A DNA stretch of 64,000 nucleotides, taken from the NCBI GenBank assembly GCA_902779055.1, contig CACZAD010000008.1:1-64000 (forward strand), written 5' to 3'. The DNA is from Fibrobacter succinogenes. Lineage in GTDB: Bacteria; Fibrobacterota; Fibrobacteria; Fibrobacterales; Fibrobacteraceae. Shown here one piece after another: positions 37,249 to 57,204 of this stretch. Under the pieces are notes generated by a model, which saw only the letters and a list, made by a program, of their open reading frames with translations, was not told where the DNA came from and made no database searches. The position numbers were made by a program, and so were the translations under genes. The stretch's first letter is position 1. Each line of letters begins with the position of its first letter.

Positions 37249-37262
37249 TGAGGTAAAAGTCA

Positions 37263-38423: not shown

Positions 38424-38439
38424 GATAATCGCGAGTATT

Positions 38440-38492
38440 GTCATTCCCGCCGGAGCCTGTGCTGAGCGCAGTCGAAGTAAGCGGGAATCTCC
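38440..38492. repeat. Dispersed GTCATTCCCGC repeat unit with insert
   Basis: Outer arms GTCATTCCCGC and GCGGGAATCTCC enclose GAGCCTGTGCTGAGCGCAGTCGAAG-type sequence. It is the intergenic form of the unit found inside the gene at 53221-53250. Confidence 0.75.
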
Positions 38493-38506
38493 ATCGCCTT
38501 TAAATT

Positions 38507-38535
38507 CCCTCGGCATTAAGCCGGGGGATTTTTTT
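38507..38535 (+). terminator. Terminator of the decarboxylase operon
   Basis: CCCTCGGC-ATTAA-GCCGGGGG is followed by TTTTTTT. It directly precedes the first regulator cassette. Confidence 0.85.
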
Positions 38536-38552
38536 GTTTTATAGAATTTAGT

Positions 38553-38628
38553 TTTTGTTCTTTAGATTTCTAAAATTTTTAATTGTATTTTAAAAGTGCT
38601 TAAATTTGCTTAAAAACGCCATTTTTGT
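38553..38628 (+). promoter_or_regulatory. Upstream region of cassette 1 regulator
   Basis: TTTAGATTTCTAAA (38561-38574) is an inverted repeat containing the TTCTAAA word found in cassettes 3 and 4. TAAAAACGCCATTTTTGT (38611-38628) matches the block at 50840 and resembles those at 44809 and 57255. The long palindrome of the other cassettes is not seen here, and the last 58 nt before the ATG are different (TATATGCG instead of TATATTTG). Confidence 0.45.
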
Positions 38629-38686
38629 TTTCGCGAAATATTTTTAAAACCTTGTGCGCTTATATGCGATTAAGTAAATTTATGTT

Positions 38687-39520
38687 ATGATGAAATCGGT
38701 TATTGAATACAAGAACTATCGCGAGTACGTCCTGGACTATTACCAGGAACGCAAGCGTTGTTCTGCGTTTACGTGGCGAGAATTTGCGAAGAACGCCGGC
38801 TTTGCTTCGGGTTCGTACTTGAAACTTGTGAGTGACGGAAAGACGCGCTTGCGTGAAGAAAGTGCGAAAAAGACTGCCCTTGCGATGGGTCTGGTGGGTT
38901 TTGAGTTTGATTATTTTGTCTTGATGGTCCGCTATGAAAATGCGAAGTCGGATCAAGAAAAGAAAAAGTGCTTTGAAGAAATGCAGGCGCTTGGTGATGC
39001 CAGCCGTGTGAAAATTCTCGGCAGCGAAATGTACACGTTCTATGAAACGTGGAAACACTCAGTTGTCCGCGAGTTGGCTGTGGCGATGCCGGGGGCTAAG
39101 CCGAACGAAATTGCAAAAGTTTGCAGGCCTTCGATTTCTGCGGCGGATGTGAGCGAAAGTCTGCATTTTCTTGTCAAGTCCGGACTCCTGAAACGTGATA
39201 TCAGGGGCCATTACCACCAGACGAGCCAATCGCTTTCGACGGGGCGCTTGAACGTGGTTGCCGTGGCAGTGCATTCGTTGTTGCGCCAGATGGGCGAATT
39301 TGCGCTGGACGCTCTGGACAAGCTTCCGATTTCGGAACGTCATTTTAGCGGGATCACGATGGGCGTGACGGAAGAAAGCTATACAAAGATTGTTGATGAA
39401 ATAGCGGCATTCCGCAAGCACATTGTGTCGATGGTCGCCGCCGAGAAAAATCCGGAAAAAATTTGCCGATTGAACTTTCAGTTTTTCCCGCTGACGGAAA
39501 AGATTAACGTAAACGCATGA
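38687..39520 (+). CDS. TIGR02147/DUF4423 regulator of cassette 1
   Basis: This 277-residue cytoplasmic protein belongs to the TIGR02147 family, first described in Fibrobacter and of unknown function. The N-terminal 75 residues look like a helix-turn-helix of the XRE type (FTWREFAKNAGFASGSYLKLVSDGK). The middle region (ISAADVSESLHFLVKSGLLKRD, about 155-180) looks like a winged helix. A conserved tail ends in RLNFQFFPLTEK. It overlaps the first lipoprotein gene as ATGA, so the two are coupled. It is the most divergent of the four regulators. A role as DNA-binding regulator of its cassette is inferred from fold and position. An ATG at 38690 is an equally good start. Confidence 0.85.
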   Translation: MMKSVIEYKNYREYVLDYYQERKRCSAFTWREFAKNAGFASGSYLKLVSDGKTRLREESAKKTALAMGLVGFEFDYFVLMVRYENAKSDQEKKKCFEEMQALGDASRVKILGSEMYTFYETWKHSVVRELAVAMPGAKPNEIAKVCRPSISAADVSESLHFLVKSGLLKRDIRGHYHQTSQSLSTGRLNVVAVAVHSLLRQMGEFALDALDKLPISERHFSGITMGVTEESYTKIVDEIAAFRKHIVSMVAAEKNPEKICRLNFQFFPLTEKINVNA

Positions 39521-41655
39521 GTGTGCTTATGAAGGTGATGAAGTTTTTATCAAATTTTGCAACGCTTGCTTTTGGACTTTTGCTTTGGGCGTGTGCTGAA
39601 AACAATACCGCCGGCACGAGCGAAGAAAGCGAAGGCATTGTCGCAATCAAGGATCGTGAAATCGCGGGCGTGACGCAGAAGGGACCGTTCTTGACTGGTT
39701 CTTCGTTGACCGTCCAGGAACTCAATGGCGAAACTCTGGCCCAGACTGGAAAAAGCTTTATAACGAGAGTGAAAAGCGATCGGGGCGATTTTGTTCTTGG
39801 TGGTGTAAATCTGGTTTCGCCGTATGCCTTGCTTAAAGTGAACGGTTATTACCTGAATGAAGTCACTTGGAAAAAAACCGATGGAATGGTTGTGCTGAAT
39901 GCTCTTACGGACTTGTCGGACCGTAGCCATGTGAATGTGAACGTTCTCACGCATTTGACGGCAGACCGCATCTTGACTTTGGTCCGTCGCGATGGAAAAT
40001 CATTTGCAGAAGCCAAAAAGCAGGCCGAAAGGGAAGTCCTGAAGTCCTTTGCCATCATGAAGGATGTTGGAAATAGCGAAGATCTGGATTTGTTCGAAGA
40101 TGAAAATGGCTCGGTGTTGCTTGCAGTGTCTATCCTGATGCAAGGCGAGAGAACGGAAGCTTCGTTCTCTGAACTGCTTGCGAAAGCGGCCATTGCATTT
40201 GCGGATAGCGGAGTCTGGAACGGACCGGAAAAAGCCGAAGTTGCGGATTGGGCGTTCTTGACTGAAAAGGAATATTGGGAAAATCATGGAAATTACAGGG
40301 AAGGTTTACTCAGTGTCATTAAGGAAAATGTCATGTCCTGGGTAGGTGGCGATTCCGAAGATTCCTCCCTGGAAAAATATATATATGATTTTTGGGTAAA
40401 CGAATATGGGCTCGGGGTGTGCAGTGAAAAGAACTCGGGTGAAATACGTAATAATACAGATGTACATAGCAAGTTCTATAATGTGGAATTTGAATGTGAT
40501 GGTGTACACAAACGCTGGATTTGGATGGGTGTTGCCAATCCCTCAGATTCCAGTGCTGTTGGAGTCCTTGATTTACGAGATGAAAAGACGTATAAGACGA
40601 AACGCTTTGGAAATGTCGTTTGGATGACTGACAATTTGCGGTATGGCCCAAAGCCTTTAAAAGGTGTGTATTTGTATGACCGTAAATCCGCATTGGAGGC
40701 GTGCCCTGTAGGAACTCGTTTGCCGCGATATGACGAAGTCGAAAATTTGTTATCGCAATATGGTGGTGCCGGAAAAAATGCGGCAGATTCGTTGATGGCG
40801 GTGGATGGCTTCAATGCGCTACAGGACGGGTTTCCGAGTTCATTTTTCTTGGATGAATACTGGATGGCTGAAGATGGTTCCCAGTATCAGTATGAACGCA
40901 AGGGGGTTGCCATATGGATTTCGACAGAGGATATTTATTCTGGTGAATCCTTTGCTTTATGGATTGATTCTGCTGGGGCTGAAATAAGAGTATTTTCCAG
41001 TTATCTTAGTGAAGCTTCTGTTCGTTGTGTTGTTGAATCTGAATCGGAACATATGCCAGTTGTTCATGAAGAGAAACAGTATAGTGCGGACAGTTACATA
41101 AAAGATGTACGTGATAACGAAGTGTACCGTTTTACTGAAATAGATGGCAAATATTGGTTGGCGGAAAACCTGCGCTATAAAGGGGCTGTGCCGAACGATT
41201 CGATGTGCGGTGATGATGGTTGCTTTTATTCGTGGCTTGAAGCTGTAGGCCCTGATTCCACTTATAATGTGTGCCCCGAAGGTTGGCGTCTCCCTAGCCG
41301 GCTTGATTGGGATGAAATGCTGACGTTTGTGGCAAATGGAAACGTTGAGAATTTTTCCTTGGGTGGATTAAGGTCTGGTTTGAAAGATTATCATATTGGA
41401 TACAGATTGTGCGATTATAGAGACTGGAACCAGGGAGACTATGTCCTTCGGGAGGATAATGATCCGTATGATTTTAGTGCAAAAGATTTTGATTTGTCTA
41501 GATTCTGGACAAGTTCTGATACCGCTTTTGTGGAAGAGTACAGTGATAAACATATCGAAGGCGCCTGGATGATTGCATTGCGTGATAAAGAAGCTGGAGT
41601 GTGGCTCGAAGAAAAACAGGACCGATATGCTGTTCGCTGCGTAAAGGATGAATAG
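39517..41655 (+). CDS. Cassette 1 lipoprotein A, two Fib_succ_major domains
   Basis: This 712-residue lipoprotein (lipobox LLLWACAE) has the shared module from IAGVTQKGPFLTGSSLTVQELN (about residue 46) to about 340. Typical segments are NLVSPYALLKVNGYYLNEVTW, LTDLSDRSHVNVNVLTHLTADR and VLLAVSILMQ. The first Fib_succ domain (about 350-510) is atypical and lacks GWRLP, having ACPVGTRLPRYDEVENLL. The second (about 530-712) is typical: YWLAENLRY, VCPEGWRLPSRLDWDEML, FWTSSDTA, YAVRCVKDE. It is probably outside-facing, anchored in the outer membrane. Its best match in the window is the pseudogene at 45713. Confidence 0.88.
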   Translation: MSVLMKVMKFLSNFATLAFGLLLWACAENNTAGTSEESEGIVAIKDREIAGVTQKGPFLTGSSLTVQELNGETLAQTGKSFITRVKSDRGDFVLGGVNLVSPYALLKVNGYYLNEVTWKKTDGMVVLNALTDLSDRSHVNVNVLTHLTADRILTLVRRDGKSFAEAKKQAEREVLKSFAIMKDVGNSEDLDLFEDENGSVLLAVSILMQGERTEASFSELLAKAAIAFADSGVWNGPEKAEVADWAFLTEKEYWENHGNYREGLLSVIKENVMSWVGGDSEDSSLEKYIYDFWVNEYGLGVCSEKNSGEIRNNTDVHSKFYNVEFECDGVHKRWIWMGVANPSDSSAVGVLDLRDEKTYKTKRFGNVVWMTDNLRYGPKPLKGVYLYDRKSALEACPVGTRLPRYDEVENLLSQYGGAGKNAADSLMAVDGFNALQDGFPSSFFLDEYWMAEDGSQYQYERKGVAIWISTEDIYSGESFALWIDSAGAEIRVFSSYLSEASVRCVVESESEHMPVVHEEKQYSADSYIKDVRDNEVYRFTEIDGKYWLAENLRYKGAVPNDSMCGDDGCFYSWLEAVGPDSTYNVCPEGWRLPSRLDWDEMLTFVANGNVENFSLGGLRSGLKDYHIGYRLCDYRDWNQGDYVLREDNDPYDFSAKDFDLSRFWTSSDTAFVEEYSDKHIEGAWMIALRDKEAGVWLEEKQDRYAVRCVKDE

Positions 41656-41665
41656 GAGACTGATT

Positions 41666-43189
41666 ATGAAAAAATTGATGTTACCGTTTTTGCTTGCTTT
41701 AGGAACGGTTCTGCTGGCGTGTTCCGATGATGTTTTGAATGGTGCTTTGGATGATGCTGGTGTCGTTGCGATCAATGATCGTGAAATTGCTGGCGTTACG
41801 CAGAAAGGACCCTTTTTGATGGGTTCGTCGGTGACTATTCAAGAACTCGATGGACAAACCTTGGTTCAGACCGGGAAAAGCTTTAAAGCTTTTGTAAAAA
41901 GCAACCAGGGTGATTTCTCCATCAAGGATGTAAGTCTTGTTTCTCAATACGCAATGCTCGAAGTCGAAGGCTATTTTCGAAACGAAGTTACAGGACAAAA
42001 TTCTGGTGGAATGATTCTGTTGAACGCTTTGACGGACTTAAGAAAACGTGACCGTGTGAATGTGAACTTGCTTACCCATATTGAATCCGGCCGAATTCTT
42101 AATCTTGTCCAAAAGCATGGACTTTCTGTTGCCGCTGCGAAAAAGCAGGCTGAACAGGAACTCTTTTCGTCATTTGGTTTTATGAAAGGAAATGTTGCTC
42201 CAGAAGATATGGATCTCTTTTCAAAAAATAATGATGGCGCAAAGTTGCTTGCTGTGAGTGTGCTGATGCTGCAGGACAGTTCGTCGGACGCCGATTTTTC
42301 GGAACGGATGTCCAAGGTCGCTTTCGCTTTTGCGGAGAATGGTTCGTGGTCAGGGACGGATCGCGCAAAAATTGCAGATTGGGCGATGCGCTCCGAAATT
42401 GCAAATGATTCCGGTTTAAGTGTGCTGCAAAGAGTTCGGGAAAATCTGGAATCCTGGAATGAGTCTGTCCCTCCGTTTGAGGAGTATATAAACCTCTTTT
42501 GGACTAACGAATATGGGTTGGGGGCGTGTAGTGATGCAAACTTTCATGAGGTTCGTTCCAACATAAACGAGAACAGCTTGTTTTACCTTGATGAGTTCGT
42601 GTGCAACTCGAATCATCGCTGGAGCTTGATGGCGTATCGAGAAAATGCAGGCGATATCAATGTTGCTGGCGTTTATTGGGCTCCCAGAAATGTCGGTTGT
42701 GAAAGCCAAGATGATATGACCTTTGGAGGCTATGATGATACTGAAGAAGCTTTGGTGATTGACAAGCAATGCCTTGCTTATGGAGGGTATTTCTCGGCTT
42801 CTGATATATTCGGGAGTTACTACTCCGCAGCTATGGATGTGTGCCCGGATGGATATCGGTTGCCGACGCGGGAAGAAGCTCAGGCGCTGATAGATGCGTA
42901 TGGTGGCGCTGAGAATGCCGCTGCGGGGTTGCGGTCGGTAGATGGCTTTGCTGCCGTGATGAGTGGTTATGTGAATCCGATTTCGATAGGTTCTTTATAT
43001 TCGGATGTTCATTCGATGACCGGATTTTGGACATCGACCTCAAATACATGGCTGGATTCAGCGTTCAATGTGTATGTGACGGATCACTATTATTTGAAGA
43101 TAGACGCGAATGGCGCTACCATTGATAGTGTCAATCTTAAAAACAACGCGTCTATGAAGATATCGGTACGTTGCGTAAGGGATTTATAA
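41666..43189 (+). CDS. Cassette 1 lipoprotein B, one Fib_succ_major domain
   Basis: This 507-residue lipoprotein (lipobox TVLLACSD) has AGGAG 8 nt before the ATG, which decides the start over an earlier ATG at 41648. The shared module begins at IAGVTQKGPFLMGSSVTIQELD and includes VSLVSQYAMLEVEGYFRNEVTG, LLAVSVLMLQDSSS and FEEYINLFWTNEYGLGAC. The C-terminal domain starts near VAGVYWAPRNVGC and has DVCPDGYRLPTREEAQALIDAYGG, GFWTSTSNT and ISVRCVRDL. It is 10 nt after lipoprotein A and very similar to the gene at 47749. The last ~100 residues differ most between the two. Confidence 0.88.
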   Translation: MKKLMLPFLLALGTVLLACSDDVLNGALDDAGVVAINDREIAGVTQKGPFLMGSSVTIQELDGQTLVQTGKSFKAFVKSNQGDFSIKDVSLVSQYAMLEVEGYFRNEVTGQNSGGMILLNALTDLRKRDRVNVNLLTHIESGRILNLVQKHGLSVAAAKKQAEQELFSSFGFMKGNVAPEDMDLFSKNNDGAKLLAVSVLMLQDSSSDADFSERMSKVAFAFAENGSWSGTDRAKIADWAMRSEIANDSGLSVLQRVRENLESWNESVPPFEEYINLFWTNEYGLGACSDANFHEVRSNINENSLFYLDEFVCNSNHRWSLMAYRENAGDINVAGVYWAPRNVGCESQDDMTFGGYDDTEEALVIDKQCLAYGGYFSASDIFGSYYSAAMDVCPDGYRLPTREEAQALIDAYGGAENAAAGLRSVDGFAAVMSGYVNPISIGSLYSDVHSMTGFWTSTSNTWLDSAFNVYVTDHYYLKIDANGATIDSVNLKNNASMKISVRCVRDL

Positions 43190-43207
43190 AAAAGGGAGGA
43201 TGGTGAT

Positions 43208-44677
43208 ATGAAAAAGATGACTTTGTTTGTGTCGTTTGTTGTTCTCTGTTTGCTTTGCGGTTGTTCTGCGGAAAAGCCAATGGATGTTTCTGGTGTTGGG
43301 ACGCATTTTGATGGAACTGTTGATGGCGTTTCGCAAAAAGGTCCTTTTTTGACGGGATCCACGGTGACCCTTCAGGAGCTTGATGCAAGCTCTTTGGGAC
43401 AGACTGGAAAAAGTTTTAAGGGAATGATTATGAACGATAAGGGAGAGTTCGCGATCAATGATGTTGATTTGAACTCCCCGTATGCACTGCTCGTGGCCAA
43501 TGGGTATTTTCGCAATGAAGTGACTGGAGAAAAATCGAGTGGAACGATCATCATGATGGCGATTGCTGATTTGTCGAACCGTTCTCATGTGAATATCAAT
43601 TTGTTGACCCATTTGGAATATGAGAGAATTCGTGTGCTGTTGGAACAAAAGAAAATGTCTTTTGCCGATGCCAAAAACACGGCGGAACAAGAAATATTCT
43701 CAAACTTTTTTGAGGTGTCCGCTTCAGAGAATGCTGAAAACTTGAATATTTTTGGGAATAGCGAAGGGGACAAGGCTTTGCTCGCGATAAATGTCCTTTT
43801 GCTGGGCGATTTAAGTGAACCGGAATTTATGGAGCGCTTGGTCGCGTTAAGCGATGATTTTGCCTGTGATGGTGTTTGGAACGATACCCTTCTCAAGGCG
43901 AAAATTGCGGATTATGCTTGTGGGTTGAGTATGTGGGGCGAGCTTGCGAAAATCCGCAAGAATATGGAAGCCTGGAAAATTGCCGATGTCCCGGCGTTTG
44001 AACCTTATGTGAATCGTTTTTGGGCGGACCAGTATGGTCTTGGAAAATGCGATGCTTCGAATGTGGGCGAACACAAGAAGAATGCGAATGAAACCAGTGC
44101 TTTCTATGGTATGAATTTTGTCTGTGACAAGGATAGCGGCTGGGTCGCGAATAAGAATGAATTTTATGGCGGTTGTGATTCCTGTTCTGTGATGAGGGAT
44201 TCCCGTGATGGCCATGTGTATAAATATATGAATATAGATGGAACGGACTGGATGGTTTCAAATCTCAGGTATGACAACGGGGATTTTGAATGTTTGCTTG
44301 GAAATTGCGAGGATTATGGTTATCTCTATAAAGATCCTGGCACAACAAAGTTTAGTGAAGGTTATTACTATGCCTATAATCCCGACGACCCTGCTGCTGG
44401 CATATGCCCCAGTGGCTGGCGCGTCCCAATATCGGATGATTTCCGTCATTTGCTCTATGATGCTTCCGATGATGAAAAGAAGCAGCTTTTTTCGGAAGCG
44501 GAACGGGATGCCGTTTTTGCGGCAGGAGGTGACTCAACTTCTTATTGGAGTGCCTTTATTTCGCTTTCTCGAAGAACTTGTGATTGGCGTTCTGCGTTGG
44601 ATGTGTTTAGTGACGGTTCTTTGGATATATCTCTAAAAGAGTCGGGTAGAGCGTTTGTCCGTTGCGTAAGAGATTAG
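43208..44677 (+). CDS. Cassette 1 lipoprotein C, one Fib_succ_major domain
   Basis: This 489-residue lipoprotein (lipobox LLCGCSAE) has GGGAGG before the ATG. The shared module starts at GVSQKGPFLTGSTVTLQELD (about residue 41) and runs to about 310, with VDLNSPYALLVANGYFRNEVTG, LLTHLEYERIR, ALLAINVLLL and VPAFEPYVNRFWADQYGLGKC. The Fib_succ domain (about 325-489) has GTDWMVSNLRYDNGD, GICPSGWRVPISDDFRHLL, SYWSAFISLS and FVRCVRD. It closes cassette 1 before a strong terminator. The gene at 49257 is its near-duplicate. Confidence 0.88.
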   Translation: MKKMTLFVSFVVLCLLCGCSAEKPMDVSGVGTHFDGTVDGVSQKGPFLTGSTVTLQELDASSLGQTGKSFKGMIMNDKGEFAINDVDLNSPYALLVANGYFRNEVTGEKSSGTIIMMAIADLSNRSHVNINLLTHLEYERIRVLLEQKKMSFADAKNTAEQEIFSNFFEVSASENAENLNIFGNSEGDKALLAINVLLLGDLSEPEFMERLVALSDDFACDGVWNDTLLKAKIADYACGLSMWGELAKIRKNMEAWKIADVPAFEPYVNRFWADQYGLGKCDASNVGEHKKNANETSAFYGMNFVCDKDSGWVANKNEFYGGCDSCSVMRDSRDGHVYKYMNIDGTDWMVSNLRYDNGDFECLLGNCEDYGYLYKDPGTTKFSEGYYYAYNPDDPAAGICPSGWRVPISDDFRHLLYDASDDEKKQLFSEAERDAVFAAGGDSTSYWSAFISLSRRTCDWRSALDVFSDGSLDISLKESGRAFVRCVRD

Positions 44678-44703
44678 TATAAAGTTTATTTTTCGATATG
44701 AAA

Positions 44704-44732
44704 CCTCGTTAGGAAACTAGCGAGGCTTTTTT
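44704..44732 (+). terminator. Terminator of cassette 1
   Basis: CCTCGTTAG-GAAA-CTAGCGAGG forms a 9-bp stem with a GAAA loop, followed by TTTTTT. The palindrome of cassette 2 begins at the end of this T-run. Confidence 0.9.
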
Positions 44733-44761
44733 ATGTTCTCAGAACATGTAGGGTATGTTCT
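44732..44761 (+). promoter_or_regulatory. Palindrome plus half-site, candidate operator of cassette 2
   Basis: ATGTTCT-C-AGAACAT (44733-44747) is a perfect 15-bp palindrome. TATGTTCT is repeated 22 nt downstream of the first copy (44754-44761). The same arrangement, with a different sequence, precedes cassettes 3 and 4. Confidence 0.6.
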
Positions 44762-44808
44762 GAAATGTTGAAAATTTTGAAAATACTGAAAAATTGGTAA
44801 AATTTTAC

Positions 44809-44856
44809 GAAAAACGCCAATTTTATGTCCTGAATGTACTAGAAAAGGTATATTTG
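44809..44856 (+). promoter_or_regulatory. Candidate promoter of the cassette 2 regulator
   Basis: CGAAAAACGCCAATTTTATG is followed about 20 nt later by TATATTTG (44849-44856), which matches the TAnnTTTG element. The regulator ATG begins exactly 5 nt later and no ribosome-binding site is present. Confidence 0.55.
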
Positions 44857-44861
44857 TACCT

Positions 44862-45686
44862 ATGAAGGAAATCGTTGAATATACGGATTATCGCAAGTAC
44901 ATCCAGGATTACTATGACGAACGCAAACGCACTTCGGCGTTTTCTTGGCATATGTTTGCACAGAAGGCGGGCTTTGCGTCGGATGTCTACTTGAAGTATG
45001 TTTGCGAGGGTAAGAAAAACCTGAGTGTCGGTTCTGCGGGTTCTGTCGCAAGCGCTATGGACCTTGCCGGTTTTGAACAGACTTATTTTGTCCTGATGGT
45101 TTCGTACGCCCATGCAAAAGATGACAAGACGAAGCGTGCCGCATTCGAGGAACGCTGTGCGCTTGCGAATGCCCACAAGATGCGTATTCTGGGGGATGAA
45201 GAGTTCAATTATTTTAAATCGTGGAAAAATTCTGTGATTCGAGAATTGGCTCCGCATATGCCCGGCGCAAAGCCTCTCGAAATGGCGCGTGCCTGCAAAC
45301 AAAAGATTTCTGCAACGGAAGTTTCCGAGACGCTTGACTTCTTGGTAAAAGCGAAACTTTTAAAAAAGGACAAGAATGGAAACTACCAGCAAACGGATAA
45401 GGCCATCAGGATGGCGCCTGTGGAGGCCGTTCCCTTGGCGGCCCGCGATTTGCAGCGCCAGATGGGTGAGTTTGCGATACAGTCACTGGATTTGCCAATT
45501 TCTGAACGTGTGATGTCGGGCTATACGCTTGGCCTTACGGAACGTGCTTACGAACGGATAAAAAAGGAAGTGGAGGAGTTCTACCGGCGTGTTGTCGCGA
45601 TTGCGACGGAAGAAGACGATACGGAGCGGGTTTACCGCTTGAATGTGCAGCTGTTCCCGATGAGCGAATGGTTGAATAAAAAATAA
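44862..45686 (+). CDS. TIGR02147/DUF4423 regulator of cassette 2
   Basis: This 274-residue protein is closely related to the regulators of cassettes 3 and 4. The opening EIVEYTDYRKYIQDYYDERKR is nearly invariant. A helix-turn-helix-like segment follows (FSWHMFAQKAGFASDVYLKYVCEGKKNLS), then a winged-helix-like segment (ISATEVSETLDFLVKAKLLKKDKNGNYQQTD) and the tail RVYRLNVQLFPMSEW. WHMF replaces the WREF of the other three. The ATG lies 5 nt after TATATTTG. The first lipoprotein of the cassette follows after 26 nt. DNA binding and autoregulation are inferred. Confidence 0.87.
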   Translation: MKEIVEYTDYRKYIQDYYDERKRTSAFSWHMFAQKAGFASDVYLKYVCEGKKNLSVGSAGSVASAMDLAGFEQTYFVLMVSYAHAKDDKTKRAAFEERCALANAHKMRILGDEEFNYFKSWKNSVIRELAPHMPGAKPLEMARACKQKISATEVSETLDFLVKAKLLKKDKNGNYQQTDKAIRMAPVEAVPLAARDLQRQMGEFAIQSLDLPISERVMSGYTLGLTERAYERIKKEVEEFYRRVVAIATEEDDTERVYRLNVQLFPMSEWLNKK

Positions 45687-45712
45687 ACGGGTTTAAATAC
45701 GGGTAAGAAGAA

Positions 45713-47737
45713 ATGAGATGGAATGTTTATAAAAAATTTAGGAACGGTCTAGCAAACGCATTGTCGATTGCCCTTACGACTGTTTTTATGGCGGGCTGCT
45801 CGAACGAAAACGTTGCTGGTGGCGCTTCGGGCGATGCCGGCGTTGTTTCGGGGGATACAGTGGACTGTGTGATCAAGAATCGTGAAATTGCGGGTGTGAC
45901 GCAGAAGGGCCCGTTCTTGACCGGTTCTTCGTTGACTGTCCAGGAACTTGATGGCGAGACTCTGGCCCAGACTGGAAAAAGCTTTAGGACGAGAGTGAAT
46001 AGCGATCAGGGCGATTTTGTGCTTGGTGGCGTAAGTCTTGTGTCGCCGTATGCCTTGCTGGAAGTGAACGGTTATTATCTGAATGAAGTCACTTGGGAAA
46101 AATCCGATGGAATGATTGCGTTAAATGCTCTTACGGACTTGTCGGACCGTAGCCATGTGAATGTGAACATTCTGACCCATTTGACGGTAGACCGTATTTT
46201 GACTTTGATACGACGCGATGGAAAAACATTTGCCGAAGCTAAAAAGCAGGCTGAAAGGGAAGTCTTGGAGTCCTTTGGCTTTACAGGCGTTATTGAAAGT
46301 AGTGAAGAATTGAATTTGTTTGAAGAAGGAAATGGCTTGGTACTGCTTGCTATATCGGTTCTAATGCAAGGTGAGAGGGCTGAAGCCGAGTTCTCTGAAC
46401 TTCTTGCGAAAGCGACCATTGCATTTGCTGATAGCGGAATCTGGAGTGGACCGGAAAAGGGTGAAGTTGCGGATTGGGCGTTCCTGACAGAAAAGGAATA
46501 TTGGGATGCAGGTCATAGTGCCACTAGGCCCTTAATCACCGAGATTAAGAAAAATGTGGAGTCTTGGAATGTGGACCCTTTGAAGAGGGAATATTATGCA
46601 GATTCTACTTTGGAAGTGTATATATATGATTTTTGGGTAAAAGAATATGGACTTGGTGAGTGTAGTGAAGAGAACTTGGGTGAAATACGTAATAATACAG
46701 ATGTATATAGCAAGTTCTATGATATGACGTTTAAATGCGATGGAGACTATCATAAGCATTGGATTTTGATGGGTGTCGCTGATCTTTCGAACTCCGATAC
46801 GTTTCGAATAGCTGATTTGCAAGAGGAAAAGACGTATAAGATGAAACGCTTTGGGGATACCTTTTGGATGACTGGCAATTTGCAGTATCGCTCAAAGCCT
46901 TGGAAAGGTGAGTATGAATCTGCATTGAAAATTTGCCCTGTAGGATCTCGTTTGCCTCGATATGACGAAGTTGAAAATTTGTTGTTGCAATATGGTGGTG
47001 CCGGGAAAAGTGTTGCTGATTCGTTAATGAAGGTGGATGGCTTCAATGCGCTGCAGGACGGGCTCTTTAGTATAGATTTTTGGTGGTATGATGAAAATGG
47101 CCTTAGACAAGAATATGAACAAAAGGGTGTCGCGATATGGATTTCGACGAAGGATATTTATTCTTATGAAAATTTTGTTTTATGGATTGATTCTGCAGGG
47201 GCTGAAATAAAACAGATTACTGACTATTTTTCTGGTGCTTCTGTTCGTTGTGTTGTTGGTCCAGAATCGGGTAAAAAACAGGATGCTCGTGAACAGAAAT
47301 AGTATAGTGAGGACAGCTACATAAAAGATGTGCGCGATGATGAAGTGTACCGTTTTACTGAAATAGATGGCAAATATTGGTTGGCGGAAAACCTGCGCTA
47401 TAGAGAACCTGTGCTGGATGCTTCGATGTGCGATAATGATGGCTGCCGATATTCATGGCTTGAGGCTGTAGGCTCTGATTCCGCTTACAATGTATGTCCC
47501 GAAGGTTGGCGTCTCCCTAGCAGGACGGATTGGGGAGAATATGATCCGTATGATTTTAGTGTGAAGCCTTCTGGTAATACTGGATTTTGGACAAGTTCTG
47601 ATACCACGTATGTGGTACAATACGGTGATGGATATGCCGAAGGAGCCTGGATGATTGATTTACGTGATAAAGATGCTGGAGTGTGGCTTAAAGAAAAACT
47701 GAATCGTTATTCTGTTCGCTGCGTAAAGGATAAATAG
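45713..47737 (+). pseudogene. Cassette 2 lipoprotein A, interrupted by an in-frame TAG
   Basis: The reading frame from 45713 encodes a lipoprotein (lipobox FMAGCSNE) with the complete shared module (IAGVTQKGPFLTGSSLTVQELD) and the first Fib_succ domain, then stops at TAG 47300-47302 after 529 residues. The same frame continues to 47737 with a second domain: YWLAENLRY, VCPEGWRLPSRTDW, FWTSSDTT, YSVRCVKDK. The intact paralogue at 39517 has CAG (Gln) where this gene has TAG. The second domain has also lost about 50 residues after RTDWGE compared with that paralogue. The first 529 residues could still be made and exported. Confidence 0.82.
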
Positions 47738-47748
47738 GGAGGCTGGGT

Positions 47749-49239
47749 ATGAAAAAAAGGATGTTGCTCTTTTTGCTTGCTTTGGAAATAGTGCTTTTGG
47801 CGTGTTCCGGTGGTGATGTTGCGGGAGGCGCTTCGGGTGATGCGGGCGTCGTTGCGATCAAGGATCGTAAAATCGCAGGTGTTACGCAGAAGGGTCCCTT
47901 CTTGACGGGATCTTCGGTGACGATCCAGGAACTCGATGGACAAACCCTAGTCCAAACAGGGAAAAGCTTTAAAGCTTTTGTAAAAAACAATCAGGGTGAT
48001 TTCGCCATCAAGGATGTAAGCCTTGTTTCCCAATATGCGTTGCTAGAAGTTGAAGGCTATTTTCGAAACGAAATTACAGGAAAAAATTCTGATGGAATCA
48101 TTCAATTAAACGCCTTGACGGATTTGAGAAAACGTAATCATGTGAACGTGAACTTGCTTACACATCTTGAAGCGGGTCGAATTCTTAATCTTGTTCAAAA
48201 ACATGGGCTTTCCGTTGAAGTCGCAAAAAAACAAGCTGAACAGGAACTTTTTACGTCTTTTGGATTCATGAATGAAAATACAGTTCCAGAAGATATGGAT
48301 ATTTTTTCGGAAAAAAATGGTGGTGCGATGCTGCTTGCTGTAAGTGTGCTGATGCTGCAAGACAGTTCGTCGGAGGCGGATTTCTCGGAACGGATGTCTA
48401 AAGTCGCTTTTTCTTTTGCCGAGAACGGAATGTGGTCGGGAACGGATAGAGCGGAAATTGCGGATTGGGCCGTGTATTCCGAAGTTGCAAATGGTTCTGA
48501 TTTAAGTGTGCTGCAAAGAGTTCGGAAAAATCTGGAATCCTGGAATGAGTCTGTCCCTCCGTTTGAGACGTATATCAACCTTTTTTGGTCTAACGAATAT
48601 GGTTTGGGTCCGTGTAGTGATGCAAACTTTCATAAGGTTCGTCCTAACATAAATGAAAATAGCTTGTTTTATCTGGATGAGTTCGTGTGTAACTCGAATC
48701 ACCGCTGGAGCTTGATTGCGTATCGAGAAAATGCAGGCGATCTCAATGTTGCTGGAGTTTATTGGGCGCCTAGAAATGTTGGATGTGAAAAACAGCAGTC
48801 CTTAAGTGGATATTATCCAGGTTCTGATATGGCTTTAAAGAGGGAAAAAATGGTAAAAAAACAGTGTATTGTTTATGGCGGGTACTTTTATGCATATGAA
48901 GCTTCGAGTGTGTGTCCGGATGGATATCGGTTGCCGACGCGCGAAGAAGCTCAGGCATTGATAGATGCGTACGGCGGAAGTGAAATGGCGGCCGTTGGCC
49001 TGCAATCTGTAGATGGCTTTGCTGCAGTGAAGGGCGGTCGTATTGCGAGGGTGGCGTATGGCTTGGATTATACGAATAACATTGCAGAAGAATATAAGTC
49101 TGTTCACGATGTTGGCGAATTTTGGACGTCGACCTCAGAATCGGAACCCCGTTACTTTTTGAATATCGGCTCGAATGGAGCTTTCGTTGATGGAGGTGAT
49201 TATAGTCGTCGGTCTGTTCGTTGCGTAAGGAACTTTTAA
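47749..49239 (+). CDS. Cassette 2 lipoprotein B, one Fib_succ_major domain
   Basis: This 496-residue lipoprotein (lipobox VLLACSGG) is the counterpart of the gene at 41666. The shared module has IAGVTQKGPFLTGSSVTIQELD, VSLVSQYALLEVEGYFRNEITG, LLAVSVLMLQDSSS and FETYINLFWSNEYGLGPC. The Fib_succ domain has VCPDGYRLPTREEAQALIDAYGG, EFWTSTSES and RSVRCVRNF. GGGAGG precedes the ATG by 7 nt. Identity with its counterpart is high up to the middle of the C-terminal domain and then falls sharply, with insertions and deletions around the FWTS segment. Confidence 0.88.
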   Translation: MKKRMLLFLLALEIVLLACSGGDVAGGASGDAGVVAIKDRKIAGVTQKGPFLTGSSVTIQELDGQTLVQTGKSFKAFVKNNQGDFAIKDVSLVSQYALLEVEGYFRNEITGKNSDGIIQLNALTDLRKRNHVNVNLLTHLEAGRILNLVQKHGLSVEVAKKQAEQELFTSFGFMNENTVPEDMDIFSEKNGGAMLLAVSVLMLQDSSSEADFSERMSKVAFSFAENGMWSGTDRAEIADWAVYSEVANGSDLSVLQRVRKNLESWNESVPPFETYINLFWSNEYGLGPCSDANFHKVRPNINENSLFYLDEFVCNSNHRWSLIAYRENAGDLNVAGVYWAPRNVGCEKQQSLSGYYPGSDMALKREKMVKKQCIVYGGYFYAYEASSVCPDGYRLPTREEAQALIDAYGGSEMAAVGLQSVDGFAAVKGGRIARVAYGLDYTNNIAEEYKSVHDVGEFWTSTSESEPRYFLNIGSNGAFVDGGDYSRRSVRCVRNF

Positions 49240-49256
49240 AAAAGGAGGATAATCAG

Positions 49257-50693
49257 ATGAAAAAGATGACTTTGTTTGTGCAGTTTGTTGTTCTCTGTTT
49301 GTTTTGCGGATGTTCTTCGGAAAATCCAATGGAGTTTCCAGGAGTAGGAACGCATTTTGACGGAACCGTTGATGGCGTTTCGCAAAAAGGTCCTTTTTTG
49401 ACGGGATCCACGGTAACCCTTCAGGAACTTGATGCGAAATCCTTGGAACAGACTGGAAAAAGTTTTAAGGGAAAGATTACGAATGATAAAGGTGAGTTCG
49501 CGGTCGATAATGTTAATCTGGACTCTCCGTATGGACTGCTTGTGGCCAATGGGTATTTCCGTAATGAGGTGACGGGGAAAAAATCGAGTGGAACGATAAC
49601 TTTGATGGCATTTGCGGATTTATCGAACCGTTCTCATGTGAATGTCAATTTGCTGACCCATTTGGAATATGGGAGAGTTCGTGTGTTGCTGGATCAAAAG
49701 AAAATGTCTTTCGTAAAGGCCAAAAATAAGGCGGATCAGGAAATTTTCTCAAACTTTTTTGATATGTCTATTTCTGAAAAAGCCGAAAACTTGAGTATTT
49801 TTGAGGATAGCGAAGGGGGCAGGGCTCTGCTCGCGATAAATGTCCTTTTGTTGGGAAATTTAAGTGAATCGGAATTTATGGAACGTTTGATTGCGTTAGG
49901 CGATGATTTTGCCCGTGATGGCGTTTGGAACGATGCCCTTCTCAAGACGAAAATCGCGGATTATGCTTGTGGATTGAGTGTATGGGGCGAACTTCTGGAA
50001 ATTCGCAAGAATATGGAAGCCTGGAAAATTGCCGATGTCCCGGCGTTTGAACCTTATGTGAATCGTTTTTGGGCGGACCAGTATGGCCTTGGAACATGCG
50101 ATGCTTCGAATGTGGGTGAACGTAAGAAGAATGCGAATGAAACTAGTGTTTTCTATGGCATGAATTTTATCTGTGACAAGGATAGCGGATGGGTTGCTAA
50201 TAAGAATGAATTATCTGTGATGTGGGATCACCGTGATGGCCATATCTATAAATATATGAATATAGATGGAACGGATTGGATGACGTCAAATCTCAGGTAT
50301 GACAACGGGGATTTTGAATGCTTCCTCGGAAACTGCGAGGATTATGGTTATCTCTATAAAGATCCTGGAGTATGGAGAACTTTTTTAGAAAGCAATTACG
50401 GTAACCCTGCTGGTATATGCCCTAGTGGCTGGCGTATTCCTGTATTTGAGGATTATGAACATTTGAAAAAATATGCTTCTGAAAATGACATAAAACCGCT
50501 TTTCTCGGAAGCTGAAAGGAACATCATTTTGGCGTCAGGGGTTGATTCGACTTCTTATTGGCTTGGGGATGTTGCGGTATCACAGCGGTATGGAGAACGG
50601 CGTCAAGCCTTGGATGTGTATCGTAGTGGTCGTTTTTATTTTCATGTGAAAAAAAGGGGTGATGCCGTCTTTGTCCGTTGCGTCAGAGATTAG
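49257..50693 (+). CDS. Cassette 2 lipoprotein C, one Fib_succ_major domain
   Basis: This 478-residue lipoprotein (lipobox LFCGCSSE) is nearly a copy of the gene at 43208. AAAGGAGG 10 nt upstream decides the start. The shared module begins GVSQKGPFLTGSTVTLQELD and includes LTHLEYGRVRVLL, ALLAINVLLLG and VPAFEPYVNRFWADQYGLGTC. The Fib_succ domain has GTDWMTSNLRYDNGD, GICPSGWRIPVFEDYEHL, SYWLGDVAVS and FVRCVRD. A stretch of about eight residues present in the copy at 43208 (YGGCDSCS) is missing here. It closes cassette 2. Confidence 0.88.
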   Translation: MKKMTLFVQFVVLCLFCGCSSENPMEFPGVGTHFDGTVDGVSQKGPFLTGSTVTLQELDAKSLEQTGKSFKGKITNDKGEFAVDNVNLDSPYGLLVANGYFRNEVTGKKSSGTITLMAFADLSNRSHVNVNLLTHLEYGRVRVLLDQKKMSFVKAKNKADQEIFSNFFDMSISEKAENLSIFEDSEGGRALLAINVLLLGNLSESEFMERLIALGDDFARDGVWNDALLKTKIADYACGLSVWGELLEIRKNMEAWKIADVPAFEPYVNRFWADQYGLGTCDASNVGERKKNANETSVFYGMNFICDKDSGWVANKNELSVMWDHRDGHIYKYMNIDGTDWMTSNLRYDNGDFECFLGNCEDYGYLYKDPGVWRTFLESNYGNPAGICPSGWRIPVFEDYEHLKKYASENDIKPLFSEAERNIILASGVDSTSYWLGDVAVSQRYGERRQALDVYRSGRFYFHVKKRGDAVFVRCVRD

Positions 50694-50734
50694 TAATGAG
50701 GCTGGTGCCAACAAATTGTTAGGAGAAAAATGTT

Positions 50735-50762
50735 GCCTCCGCCGGAATGGCGGAGGCTTTTT
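50735..50762 (+). terminator. Terminator of cassette 2
   Basis: GCCTCCGCC-GGAAT-GGCGGAGGC is followed by TTTTT. The palindrome of cassette 3 starts 2 nt later. Confidence 0.9.
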
Positions 50763-50763
50763 C

Positions 50764-50792
50764 TGTGTTCCTGGAATACATCTTTGTGTTCT
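50764..50792 (+). promoter_or_regulatory. Palindrome plus half-site, candidate operator of cassette 3
   Basis: TGTGTTCC-T-GGAATACA (50764-50780) has 8-bp arms with one mismatch. The half-site TGTGTTCT recurs 21 nt downstream (50785-50792) and is followed by AAAG and a second TTCTAAAA. Confidence 0.6.
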
Positions 50793-50838
50793 AAAGTTCT
50801 AAAATTTGCATTATTTCTGCAAATATGGTAAAATTTGA

Positions 50839-50888
50839 CTAAAAACGCCATTTTTGTATTCTGAAAACTGCGGAAATGTCTATATTTG
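50839..50888 (+). promoter_or_regulatory. Candidate promoter of the cassette 3 regulator
   Basis: CTAAAAACGCCATTTTTGTA is followed 24 nt after TTTTTG by TATATTTG (50881-50888). The regulator ATG begins exactly 5 nt later, with no ribosome-binding site. Confidence 0.55.
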
Positions 50889-50893
50889 TACAC

Positions 50894-51793
50894 ATGAAGG
50901 AGATCGTAGAATACACAGACTACCGCAAGTTCATCCAGGACTACTACGATGAACGCAAGCGAAGCTCGGCTTTTACGTGGCGCGAGTTTGCCCGTGATGC
51001 GGGATTTTCGTCGGCTGTGTATTTGAAGTACGTTTGCGAGGGCAAAAAGAATCTGAGTGTAGGGTCGGCGGGGTCCGTTGCTGCGGCGATGGGACTTGCC
51101 GGGTTCGAGCAGACGTACTTTGTCTTGATGGTTTCGTATGCGCATGCCAAAGATGACAAGGCGAGACGTGCCGCGTTCGAAGAACGTTGTGCGCTCGCGC
51201 ATGCCCACAAGGTGCGTGTGCTCGGGAACGAGGAATTCGATTATTTCAAGTCGTGGAAGAATCCGGTGCTGCGCGAGATTGCTCCGCATATGCCGGGTGC
51301 AAAGCCTCTTGAAATGGCTCGTAAGTGCAAGCCGCAGATTTCTGCGGCGGAGGTTTCCGAGACGCTTGACTTTTTGGTGCGCGCGAAGCTCTTGAAGAAG
51401 GACAAGAGCGGAAACTACGAACAGACGGACAAGTCGTTATCGATGGGGTCGGTCGATGTAGCGCCTGTGGCGGCCCGCGATATGCAACGTCAGATGGGGG
51501 AATTTGCGGTGAAGGCTTTGGACCTGCCGCTATCGGAACGTGACATGTCGGGGCTTACCATGGGGCTTACGCGCCGTGCTTACGAAAAAATCAGGAAGGA
51601 AATTGCGGATTTTCGCCGCCGCATTGTGGCGATTGCCAGTGAGGACGATGAGACGGATCAGGTGTACCGCCTGAATTTGCAGTTGTTCCCGCTGAGCGAA
51701 CGTCTTGGCGATGAATCGACACGCTCGGTTTCGGGTGAAGGTGTTGAAAAAAGAAAGGAGAAAGGTGATGAAGTCCGTCGTAAAAGTTTTTGA
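50894..51793 (+). CDS. TIGR02147/DUF4423 regulator of cassette 3
   Basis: This 299-residue protein has the family layout: EIVEYTDYRKFIQDYYDERKR, a helix-turn-helix-like segment (FTWREFARDAGFSSAVYLKYVCEGKKNLS), a winged-helix-like segment (ISAAEVSETLDFLVRAKLLKKD) and the tail QVYRLNLQLFPLSERL. It has a charged C-terminal extension (VEKRKEKGDEVRRKSF) that results from overlap with the next gene. I chose the ATG 5 nt after TATATTTG. An in-frame ATG at 50876 would place the promoter element inside the gene. Its last 26 nt overlap the lipoprotein gene, so the two are coupled. Confidence 0.87.
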   Translation: MKEIVEYTDYRKFIQDYYDERKRSSAFTWREFARDAGFSSAVYLKYVCEGKKNLSVGSAGSVAAAMGLAGFEQTYFVLMVSYAHAKDDKARRAAFEERCALAHAHKVRVLGNEEFDYFKSWKNPVLREIAPHMPGAKPLEMARKCKPQISAAEVSETLDFLVRAKLLKKDKSGNYEQTDKSLSMGSVDVAPVAARDMQRQMGEFAVKALDLPLSERDMSGLTMGLTRRAYEKIRKEIADFRRRIVAIASEDDETDQVYRLNLQLFPLSERLGDESTRSVSGEGVEKRKEKGDEVRRKSF

Positions 51794-54692: not shown

Positions 54693-54715
54693 TGTTTGAA
54701 AAAAGGAGAAGGAAA

Positions 54716-57124
54716 GTGAAAGGATTCATAAGTAAATCAATTACTTTGTTTGTGGCGATTGCTTCGGCGGGGATGCTGTCGGCTTGCCTGGATGATAAAG
54801 TTGCGGGCGGCGTCACGGAAGATGCTGGGCTTGCCATCAAGGACTTGAATGTGGCTGGCTTGGCGCAAAAGGGCCCGTTCGTCAAGGGTTCTGTGGTGAC
54901 GGTGCAGGGTGTGGATTGCAAGACGATGAAGTTCACGGATGAAGAATTTACGGGCAAAGTCAAGAGCAACAAGGGCGACTTTGGCGTTGATGATGTGAAT
55001 CTCTCGGCGACTTGCGCGTTGTTCGCTGTGTCCGGTTATTACATGAATGAATTTACCGGTGAACAGTCTTCGGACAAGTTGACGCTCCATGCGATTACGG
55101 ATTTGAAGGACCGCAAGCACGTGAACATCAACGTGCTCACGGAATTGGAATACGAGCGCGTGATGAAGCTTGTCTCCAAGGAAAAGATGTCCTTTGACGA
55201 TGCGAAAATGCAGGCCGAAAAGGAAATCCTCACGGCGTTGGGCTTGGTGGATCGTTTTGAATCATTCGAAGGGTTGAACATCTATGAAAAGGGCGACGGA
55301 AACGCGACGCTCCTTGCGACGAGCGTAACATTGCAAGCGGATTTGGATGCGAAAAAGCTCACGGAACGTTTGGATGGCTTTGCCTCGTCCATCACGGAAA
55401 GTGGCGAATGGGACGACGAAAAGACGAAGAAGGAAATGGCCGATTGGGCGGATTCTGCAAAGTCCGATGGCAAATACGAAACGATTCGCGACAATCTTGA
55501 AAAATGGAGCGACTCCGATGAAATCCCCGACTTTGAAAAGGTTGTCGACGAAATAAATAAGGATGCCGATAAGAATGCCAAGGATTCTACTCAGAAAATC
55601 TCTGAAGGCTGGAGCTGGGATGTGCCGCAGTCCGCTCGCCTGAATCCGAATGTCAAATACGACACGATGATCGACCCGCGCGACAAGCAAGTGTATAAGG
55701 TCGTGAAAATTGAAGTGAAGGATCAGGACTATTCGCATGTGTGGATGGCGGAAAACCTGAACTATGCCGATAGCGTGAAGACGCCGAGTTTGAAGGGCAG
55801 AAATTGGTGCTATAATGGTGAAGAGAAAAATTGCAAGGTGGGTGGCCGTTATTACAGCTGGTCTGCCGCAATTGACTCTGTTGCTTTGGCAAATGATCCA
55901 AAGGATCCGCTGGATTGCGGCTTTGGCAGAATTTGCGGGCTCAATCGTGGTGTCCAGGGAATTTGCCCTGATGGCTGGCATTTGCCGACAATTCATGAAT
56001 GGGGCTTGCTGAGCGTGGCTTTAGGAAATGCAGGCGTTGCTGGTGATTCGCTTAAGGCACTGACCGGATGGGACTATGCCGGAACGGCTGACAACAATGG
56101 TCAAGATGCCTATGGATTCTCTGCCCTCCCGACCGGAAGACGAATTTCTGAGACTAGCTGGGAAAAGGTGGGCTCGGATGTTTATTATTGGAGCTCAAAC
56201 GAAAGTGGTGAGAATCTTGCCCGGTATTCGAATATAAACAACATTTATACCAAGTTCTATTTGTACCAAAATTTGAAAACTTACGGACAGAGCGTGCGTT
56301 GCATCAAGGGCGATGCTTCGACTGCCGCGATAAAGTCTTCATCAAGTTCAAGTGTCGTTGAAGCGAAGTCTAGCAGCAGTTCTGTTGTAAGATCAAGTAG
56401 TTCTGGAACCTCTACAGAATGGAGCTGGGATGTTTCCAAGGAAAAGCGCCTGAATCCGAATATCAAGTACGATTCCATTGTGGATTCCCGCGACAAGCGT
56501 GTGTATAAAGTCGTGAAGATTGAAGTGAAGGAACATGATTATTCAAAGGTGTGGATGGCGGAGAACCTGAACTATGATGATAGCGTCAAGACTCCGAGCT
56601 TGAAGGGGAATAGTTGGTGCTACCACGATACCACGAAATATTGCGATGTGGGTGGTCGCTATTACACTTGGGCGGCGGCGATTGATTCTGTTGCCTTGGC
56701 GAATGATTCGAAGGAACCGCTGGATTGTGGTTATGGCAAAACTTGCGGACTTGATCGCCAGATTCAGGGAATTTGCCCTGACGGATGGCACTTGCCGTCG
56801 AATGATGAATGGGGCAAGTTGAGTGTCGCTTTGGGGAACGCGGGCGTGTCTGGCGATTCGCTCAAGGCGCTGACCGGATGGAATTATGCTGGAACGGATG
56901 ACAACAATGGTCAAGATGCCTATGGATTCTCGGCGCTCCCGACCGGAAGACGAATTTCTGAGACTAGCTGGGAAAAGGTGGGCTCGGATGTCTATTATTG
57001 GAGTTCCAATGAATATAGTGAGAGTTATGCCCGGTATTCGAACATAAACAACATTTACACCAAGTTCTATTTGTACCAAAATTCAAAAAAATATGGACAA
57101 AGCGTTCGCTGCGTGAAGGATTAA
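54716..57124 (+). CDS. Cassette 3 lipoprotein, two near-identical Fib_succ_major domains
   Basis: This 802-residue lipoprotein (lipobox MLSACLDD) starts at a GTG with AAAGGAG 9-15 nt upstream. An in-frame GTG at 54692 would overlap the previous stop. The shared module (GLAQKGPFVKGSVVTVQGVD) runs to about 300, with LTELEYERVMKLV and TLLATSVTLQADLDAKKL. A linker with many charged residues follows. The two Fib_succ domains (about 310-530 and 570-802) are joined by SSSSSVVEAKSSSSSVVRSS. Both have VWMAENLNY, GICPDGWHLP and an almost identical NGQDAYGFSALPTGRRISE block. The gene closes cassette 3. Confidence 0.88.
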   Translation: MKGFISKSITLFVAIASAGMLSACLDDKVAGGVTEDAGLAIKDLNVAGLAQKGPFVKGSVVTVQGVDCKTMKFTDEEFTGKVKSNKGDFGVDDVNLSATCALFAVSGYYMNEFTGEQSSDKLTLHAITDLKDRKHVNINVLTELEYERVMKLVSKEKMSFDDAKMQAEKEILTALGLVDRFESFEGLNIYEKGDGNATLLATSVTLQADLDAKKLTERLDGFASSITESGEWDDEKTKKEMADWADSAKSDGKYETIRDNLEKWSDSDEIPDFEKVVDEINKDADKNAKDSTQKISEGWSWDVPQSARLNPNVKYDTMIDPRDKQVYKVVKIEVKDQDYSHVWMAENLNYADSVKTPSLKGRNWCYNGEEKNCKVGGRYYSWSAAIDSVALANDPKDPLDCGFGRICGLNRGVQGICPDGWHLPTIHEWGLLSVALGNAGVAGDSLKALTGWDYAGTADNNGQDAYGFSALPTGRRISETSWEKVGSDVYYWSSNESGENLARYSNINNIYTKFYLYQNLKTYGQSVRCIKGDASTAAIKSSSSSSVVEAKSSSSSVVRSSSSGTSTEWSWDVSKEKRLNPNIKYDSIVDSRDKRVYKVVKIEVKEHDYSKVWMAENLNYDDSVKTPSLKGNSWCYHDTTKYCDVGGRYYTWAAAIDSVALANDSKEPLDCGYGKTCGLDRQIQGICPDGWHLPSNDEWGKLSVALGNAGVSGDSLKALTGWNYAGTDDNNGQDAYGFSALPTGRRISETSWEKVGSDVYYWSSNEYSESYARYSNINNIYTKFYLYQNSKKYGQSVRCVKD

Positions 57125-57142: not shown

Positions 57143-57177
57143 CCGAGGCCTCGCTATTCACGGCGGGGTCTTTTTTT
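57143..57177 (+). terminator. Probable terminator of cassette 3
   Basis: CCCGAGGCCTCG...CACGGCGGGG can fold into an imperfect hairpin and is followed by TTTTTTT. The stem is weaker than at the other cassettes. The palindrome of cassette 4 begins within the T-run. Confidence 0.5.
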
Positions 57178-57204
57178 GTATCCCAGGGATACAACTTGTA
57201 TTCT
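57176..57204 (+). promoter_or_regulatory. Palindrome plus half-site, candidate operator of cassette 4
   Basis: TTGTATCCCAGGGATACAA (57176-57194) is a perfect 19-bp palindrome. The half-site TTGTATTCT recurs 20 nt downstream of the first half (57196-57204) and is followed by AAA. Confidence 0.65.

Follow-up and report, generated by a model that had tools for sequence, protein, structure and literature searches.

A peptide tag of eight residues, lying just behind the lipid-anchored cysteine of a family of Fibrobacter lipoproteins, follows the class of the regulator encoded in the same cassette and not the body of the lipoprotein that carries it. This association, which is new here, is shown statistically. 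Across the genus, the regulators are also shown to hold fixed slots while the lipoprotein bodies behind them are reshuffled. The reference DNA is contig C8 of a Fibrobacter genome labelled G000 (93 contigs; contamination estimate 7.9%), and the window referred to below is the whole stretch that was analysed, 64,000 nt in length. Those of the compared relatives that carry names are rumen and gut Fibrobacter.

Four cassettes are found 3' of an oadB-like gene (the names oadB and oadG are provisional labels of ours, with gene order as support). Each cassette starts with a TIGR02147 regulator, and the gene orders are R1-A1-B1-C1, R2-A2-B2-C2, R3-D-E and R4-F. The features of the array are as follows.

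38424..38689, plus strand: R1 upstream region, with TTTTTGTTTT repeats and a TAAATTTA box close to the ATG (sequence, 29 R1-clade upstream regions compared)
38690..39520, plus strand: regulator R1 (TIGR02147/DUF4423; NCBIfam TIGR02147, E 1e-85)
39517..41655, plus strand: lipoprotein A1, with two FISUMP stretches and T1 tag GTSEESEG at 39613-39636
41666..43189, plus strand: lipoprotein B1, without a class tag, GALDDAG instead; 96% aa identity to B of G093
43208..44677, plus strand: lipoprotein C1, without a class tag; 93-94% aa identity to C of G093
44733..44747, no strand assigned: R2-class palindrome ATGTTCTCAGAACAT, a candidate operator, with more half-sites at 44755 and 44825 and a TATATTTG box at 44849-44856
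44862..45686, plus strand: regulator R2 (TIGR02147), predicted XRE-type HTH plus winged helix (AlphaFold2 model, pLDDT 85)
45713..47302, plus strand: lipoprotein A2, a native R2-slot head (signal peptide, T2 tag GGASGDAG at 45818-45841) fused to a trio body and terminating at an in-frame TAG
45812..45912, no strand assigned: 5' seam, where likeness to the G004 R2 cassette gives way to likeness to the G004 R1-slot trio (50-nt identity profile, sliding alignment)
47330..47737, plus strand: remnant of the second FISUMP domain of A2 past the in-frame stop (ORF)
47749..49239, plus strand: lipoprotein B2, with T2 tag GGASGDAG at 47824-47847; 88% aa identity to B of G004
49257..50693, plus strand: lipoprotein C2, without a class tag; sister of C of G004 (support 100/100)
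50690..50760, no strand assigned: 3' seam, from likeness to the G004 C-end/R2 upstream region to likeness to the G004 R3 upstream region
50764..50780, no strand assigned: R3-class palindrome TGTGTTCCTGGAATACA, a candidate operator
50894..51793, plus strand: regulator R3, 95% aa identity to R3 of G004
51765..54692, plus strand: lipoprotein D, with T3 tag GGTTEDAG at 51855-51878
54716..57124, plus strand: lipoprotein E, with T3 tag GGVTEDAG at 54806-54829
57177..57193, no strand assigned: R4-class palindrome TGTATCCCAGGGATACA, a candidate operator
57308..58177, plus strand: regulator R4 (the R4 clade comprises 11 loci)
58146..59747, plus strand: lipoprotein F, with T4 tag GGSSDDAG at 58251-58274; a structure model was made

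Unlike A in the relatives, which is uninterrupted, A2 of the window is split by an in-frame TAG at 47,300-47,302, beyond which the remainder of the second FISUMP domain stays open (47,330-47,737). Upstream of oadB, at 31695-35940, are two lipoproteins of the same N-domain family that have neither tag nor regulator, and their C-terminal parts, judged by eye, resemble histidine-phosphatase (phosphoglycerate-mutase-like) domains. Divergence around the array is very uneven: the oadG/oadB-like genes (36019-38423) are 95-99% identical in nucleotides to several relatives, the neighbouring flank genes about 81%, and the regulators are lower still at silent sites.

All four regulators match TIGR02147 over their full length (288-353 bits; curated cut-off 50), a family (TIGR02147/DUF4423, Fsuc_second) annotated merely as paralogous. 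The domain common to the trio is FISUMP (TIGR02145/PF09603); A1, C1 and C2 score above its curated cut-off of 41.65, while B1 and A2 (41.6) and B2 (40.0) fall just below. TIGR02145 is described as a putative cellulose-binding domain, and a cellulose-binding or cohesin-like role has been suggested in Fibrobacter (PMC4704652). What differs here is its occurrence in tagged lipoproteins whose bodies move between regulators.

Protein identity is 68% between A1 and A2, 76% between B1 and B2 and 77% between C1 and C2, with the remaining A/B/C combinations at 38-47%. Among the regulators, R1 and R2 share 50% identity, R2 and R3 77%, R2 and R4 70%, and R3 and R4 73%. A blastn comparison of cassettes 1 and 2 gave one block at 79%, which starts late in A and reaches C, and one at 70% that contains the regulators. 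A preliminary description, made from the sequence alone, had claimed that A, B and C occur in the same order in both cassettes, that R2 is nearer to R3 and R4 than to R1, and that trio and regulator have different histories. The first claim held, with the open reading frames at the positions listed above, as did the second (77% and 70% versus 50%) and the third, which rests on the A, B and C trees compared with the regulator trees. Its statement that C1 and C2 are almost copies was overstated (77% aa, 83% nt).

The discordance between regulator and trio is real and far above chance. The DNA trees for A, B and C included the two trios of the window (W1 and W2) together with G004, G074, G093 and G087. 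In each of the three, W2 and G004 are sisters with support of 100/100, and the AU test rejects W1+W2 (p 3.4e-66 for A, 8.5e-5 for B and 4.1e-8 for C). The trio of cassette 2 is thus not a tandem copy of cassette 1 but the sister of the trio in the R1 slot of G004. In the regulator tree, the syntenic R1 orthologs form one group and the syntenic R2 orthologs another (both 100/100), and R1 and R2 of the window as sisters are rejected (p 2.3e-80).

A rate artefact can be excluded, the regulators being the more conserved part between species: amino acid identity to G004 is 91% for R1, 95% for R2 and 95% for R3, against 72-82% for A, 88% for B and 77-81% for C. Because the lipoproteins are the faster-diverging part, correcting for rate widens the discordance. 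The claim of separate histories would have fallen had regulator and lipoprotein trees agreed after such correction; this was tested, and they disagree. At 4-fold sites, identity to G004 is uneven among the regulators (R1 62%, R2 68%, R3 89%), so the regulators possibly recombine too. A tandem duplication of the whole cassette within this genome, with fast regulators distorting the trees, would account for the gene order shared by cassettes 1 and 2, but is all but excluded by the AU rejections of W1+W2 and of R1+R2 and by the lower divergence of the regulators between species.

A breakpoint search by sliding alignment and by a 50-nt identity profile placed seams at 45,812-45,912 in A2 and at about 50,700, ahead of the R3 promoter. 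On the 5' side, the window tracks the R2 cassette of G004 to about 45,812 and the R1-slot trio of G004 from about 45,862, which puts the seam within A2, past the signal peptide and around or just past the tag. On the 3' side, likeness to the trio ends near 50,700 and is followed by likeness to the G004 R3 upstream region. The preliminary description had missed that the N-terminal tag remains with the regulator, so that the seam falls within gene A and not between the regulator and A.

Cassette 1 is itself a mosaic. It is 97-100% identical to G093 at about 39.45-39.99 kb and 41.77-44.40 kb and 60-85% identical in between, compared with best matches of 78-83% to these relatives over a 5.3-kb flanking stretch. 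The high-identity stretches are likely to be recent interspecies tracts. In line with such mosaic tracts, W1+G093 is supported (100/100) for B and C and rejected for A (p 1.3e-5). A chimera introduced by assembly or binning could be suspected from the contamination estimate and the mosaic identity, but is very unlikely: the whole array and its upstream flank are on one contig in the genus-wide order, and comparable head/body joints occur in many other genomes.

In the loci compared, the first regulator after oadB is of the R1 type in all 27 that bear oadB, and the R2, R3 and R4 types come next, in that order, where present. There is one clear exception, G018C30, in which the order is broken. 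What lies behind each regulator changes. Behind R1 are trios in the window, G004, G074, G093 and G087 (diverged), and E-like proteins in G086, G089, G045, G070 and G073. Behind R2 are E-like or D-like proteins in G004, G074, G087 and G093, and a distant pair (A/B-like plus C-like, 47%) in G006; a close A-B-C trio in the R2 slot was seen only in the window.

Trees and seams show that the trio of cassette 2, which sits in the R2 slot, is of the type found in the R1 slot of relatives. The original direction of the move is not settled: a trio in the R1 slot of five genomes, including the window, against one in the R2 slot of the window alone favours the R1 slot as the older, yet the B tags of the window (B1, GALDDAG) and of G093 (GGALDDAG) are two residues off the R2 tag and could suggest the opposite. 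The preliminary description had proposed exchange by recombination of either the regulator-promoter end or the trio. Recombination is supported as the likely cause, and of the two options exchange of the trio fits, because R1 and R2 occupy the slots they hold across the genus and it is the trio that occupies an unusual one. That the mechanism was homologous recombination is likely but inferred. A possible joint of another kind is at G045:C23 (L089-L090), in a genome without R2 in its array. There an R3-clade regulator at 221920 occurs with a promoter of the R2 type and a T3 tag; it resembles a fused cassette, with promoter and regulator of different classes.

The tag lies between the lipid-anchored cysteine and the AGVxQKGPF domain and falls into four classes: T1 (GTSEESEG-like) behind the R1 clade, T2 (GGASGDAG) behind R2, T3 (GGTTEDAG-like) behind R3 and T4 (GGSSDDAG) behind R4. 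These classes were set after the first set of loci had been inspected. Among 105 cassettes, the first cargo gene carries a T1-T4 tag in 94, none in 7 and another motif in 4. By clade, 29 of 31 R1 cassettes have T1 (2 none), 23/23 R2 cassettes have T2 (one, GGASGDAA, scored as T2 by a hand rule) and 11/11 R4 cassettes have T4; the remaining 40 comprise 27 T3, 3 T4, 2 T1, 4 other and 4 none. For the 94 tagged cassettes, the four tag states require 4 changes when mapped onto the regulator tree, where 3 is the minimum, but 24 on a tree of the 200-residue first-cargo bodies.

Second and third cargo genes behave likewise when tagged. Of 60 examined, 25 carry a class tag and all 25 match their regulator, a result equalled in 0 of 100,000 label shuffles; the other 35, among them C1, C2 and B1, have no tag or another motif. 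Replicate loci from another collection were scored by the same rules after dropping 58 gene-regulator cases in which the regulator was at least 98% identical to one in the first set. They gave 22 matches among 22 tagged first cargo genes (n = 28; 6 untagged) and 2 among 2 tagged later ones (n = 8).

Comparisons at matched bodies point the same way. For example, bodies that are 99% identical carry GGITEDAG behind R3 in G014C5 and GTDEQSEG behind R1 in G073C4. In 287 body-matched pairs, which are not independent, both tags match their regulators in 202, at least one member is untagged or unclassed in 82, and 3 are discrepant; these last have T1 tags behind regulators that were labelled R3 by default and that the regulator tree places beside R1. 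Pairs matched by signal peptide across clades numbered 14, with both tags matching in just 3, and are too few to serve as sole evidence.

A referee might argue that the tag has no partner, lies upstream of the seam and is simply inherited with the regulator, later-gene tags being copies of the first head. Such passive linkage remains possible. In its favour, the first-cargo tag is only about 100-150 nt from the regulator, the seam comes right after the tag, and tags within a cassette are somewhat closer at silent sites (codon difference 0.30, versus 0.42 between genomes), which indicates some shared descent or conversion. Against it, tagged later genes, which lie 0.8-6 kb downstream of the regulator, match in every case, often with a different signal peptide. 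B2 is a case in point, its signal peptide and body matching the B of G004 (which is behind R1 and has GGVLDG there), yet it has the R2 tag. Moreover, the peptide is kept while the DNA is not: across 25 within-cassette tag pairs a mean of 0.16 of 8 residues differ, whereas the 24 nt are identical in none and 30% of same-residue codons differ.

Conservation of the tag at the protein level is thus shown, and the pattern is consistent with the peptide being under purifying selection, more so than with recent copying. Silent variation is unusually low in the middle codons of T1, T2 and T4 (in T2, Ala is GCT in 24/25 and Ser is TCG in 25/27), so a role for the nucleic acid is not excluded. The idea that the tag DNA doubles as a promoter operator was rejected, as the class-specific cores are absent from the 170 nt upstream of 99 regulators (both strands, own class).

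A second alternative is surface sorting, in which the tag would resemble the lipoprotein export signal of Bacteroidetes and be unrelated to the regulator. Such a signal, K-(D/E)2 or Q-A-(D/E)2, is known in Capnocytophaga (PMC5080379); both are short, acidic and placed right after the lipidated cysteine, with differences in exact position and motif letters. The tag appears to sit in a disordered linker, since confidence is very low for residues 15-37 of the F model, which include the cysteine and most of the tag. We consider a sorting role unlikely. For general sorting, four classes tracking the regulator would be unnecessary. In addition, among lipobox-bearing ORFs outside the cargo and not adjacent to a regulator, 110 of 115 have no class tag; the other 5 all belong to this lipoprotein family and lie either at the end of a contig or in an array that the search pattern had missed.

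Class-specific palindromes precede the regulators: ATGTTCTCAGAACAT for R2 (44,733), TGTGTTCCTGGAATACA for R3 (50,764) and TGTATCCCAGGGATACA for R4 (57,177). The R2-type motif is present in 23/23 R2-clade upstream regions, and the pattern is also found in 17/36 of the R3 clade, 8/11 of the R4 clade and 10/29 of the R1 clade; these short patterns are not exclusive, and those of R3 and R4 overlap. A TATATTTG box lies at most about 13 nt from the start codon of R2, R3 and R4. The box resembles the -7 box of the Bacteroidetes type, and with such a box just before the ATG the messages would be leaderless. Over 44678-57310, R2, R3 and R4 each have in front of them, in this order, a terminator-like hairpin plus T run, the palindromes and the TATATTTG box. 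The palindromes are candidate operators, and autoregulation through them is inferred, with no binding or expression data.

For R2, whose DNA-binding role is assumed, structural matches reach only middling Z scores (VIA-align). The N-terminal part of the R2 model (pLDDT 85) is XRE-like (HigA, Z 8.2; SinR, Z 6.2), and the C-terminal part is winged-helix-like (4g6q, Z 8.4; CzrA, Z 6.3). Foldseek returned no match below E 0.001 for the R2 or F models, and a PDB sequence search with the regulator profile gave none up to E 1. In F, residues 45-257 (the N-domain) superpose on the non-heme domain of PgcA (Z 11.7), and the FISUMP domain (316-528) aligns with the C-terminal domain of Legionella Lcl (Z 7.5, 100 aligned, rmsd 2.5), possibly indicating a C-type-lectin-like adhesin fold. 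Residues that differ between regulator classes occupy 30 columns scattered over the protein, with no obvious reading site among them.

Genome-wide, G000 has 35 TIGR02147 matches. At 60 regulator loci in three genomes (30, 15 and 15), the next ORF bears a lipobox in 53 by a crude rule; one of these calls was in the wrong frame (the true neighbour is a lipoprotein), and inspection by eye identified lipoproteins in two of the seven misses. Across these loci (L113-L172), most TIGR02147 regulators, even remote ones, have a lipoprotein within tens of bases downstream, and many such lipoproteins have a looser post-cysteine motif, [VIT]xGxx[ST]xE..., for example VAGTSEEPN, TAGVTEDGN and TAGATSETTNG.

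Overall, the best explanation, and a likely one, pictures the array as four sockets that accept interchangeable plugs. Each socket would consist of the promoter with its class palindrome, the TIGR02147 regulator and the head (signal peptide and tag) of the first lipoprotein; a plug would be the body of that lipoprotein plus any later lipoproteins. Plugs would be swapped between slots and species by homologous recombination, with the conserved AGVxQKGPF coding stretch as one end of the exchange and the conserved promoter region in front of the following regulator as the other. A partner specific to the class, in the simplest case the regulator, would read the tag on the not-yet-exported lipoprotein, and this reading would adjust expression of its own operon through the palindromes. 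That the tag is kept to the local regulator class at the protein level makes reading by a class-specific partner the most likely reason for it; reading of the peptide by the cognate regulator or another such partner is nevertheless inferred and unproven, with no binding or expression data. A bolder version, which we regard as more likely wrong than right, is that the tags form a peptide identity code, in which each of the approximately 30 TIGR02147 regulators per Fibrobacter genome recognises the tag of its own lipoproteins before export and sets their expression via its own palindromic operator, the bodies being freely exchangeable if the tag fits the socket.

The pairing of TIGR02147 with tagged lipoproteins was not found in the literature searched. 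There, FISUMP and TIGR02147 are not mentioned as terms, DUF4423 appears only as a table entry, and Fsuc_second and PF14394 are absent where Fib_succ_major, TIGR02145 or PF09603 occur; the string TIGR0214 is absent from the examined passages of the S85 genome paper (PMC3079729). Partial parallels exist. Targets of diversity-generating retroelements with Fib_succ_major or DUF1566 domains have been described (PMC4159848) and use the same domain type as the variable part, with a reverse transcriptase and a template repeat expected next to the target; the variation observed in this array is replacement of entire bodies. Mosaic surface-antigen loci and systems of cassette exchange have a constant head and an exchanged body; unlike these, each Fibrobacter slot has its own regulator and a matching cargo tag. 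Peptide-sensing XRE regulators of the Rgg/PlcR type combine an XRE HTH with a TPR peptide-binding domain; the R2 model has an XRE-like part, and its C-terminal part aligned to winged-helix proteins among the matches obtained.

These results bring TIGR02147 and FISUMP, two large paralog families of Fibrobacter without established function, into a single testable system, in which regulators stay fixed, surface proteins are exchanged and a tag names the regulator to which a protein belongs. If the regulator does read the tag, the system would represent a novel way of sensing a cognate secreted protein. Otherwise, the array still shows interspecies reshuffling of surface proteins in a rumen cellulose degrader, with the tag of each slot kept.
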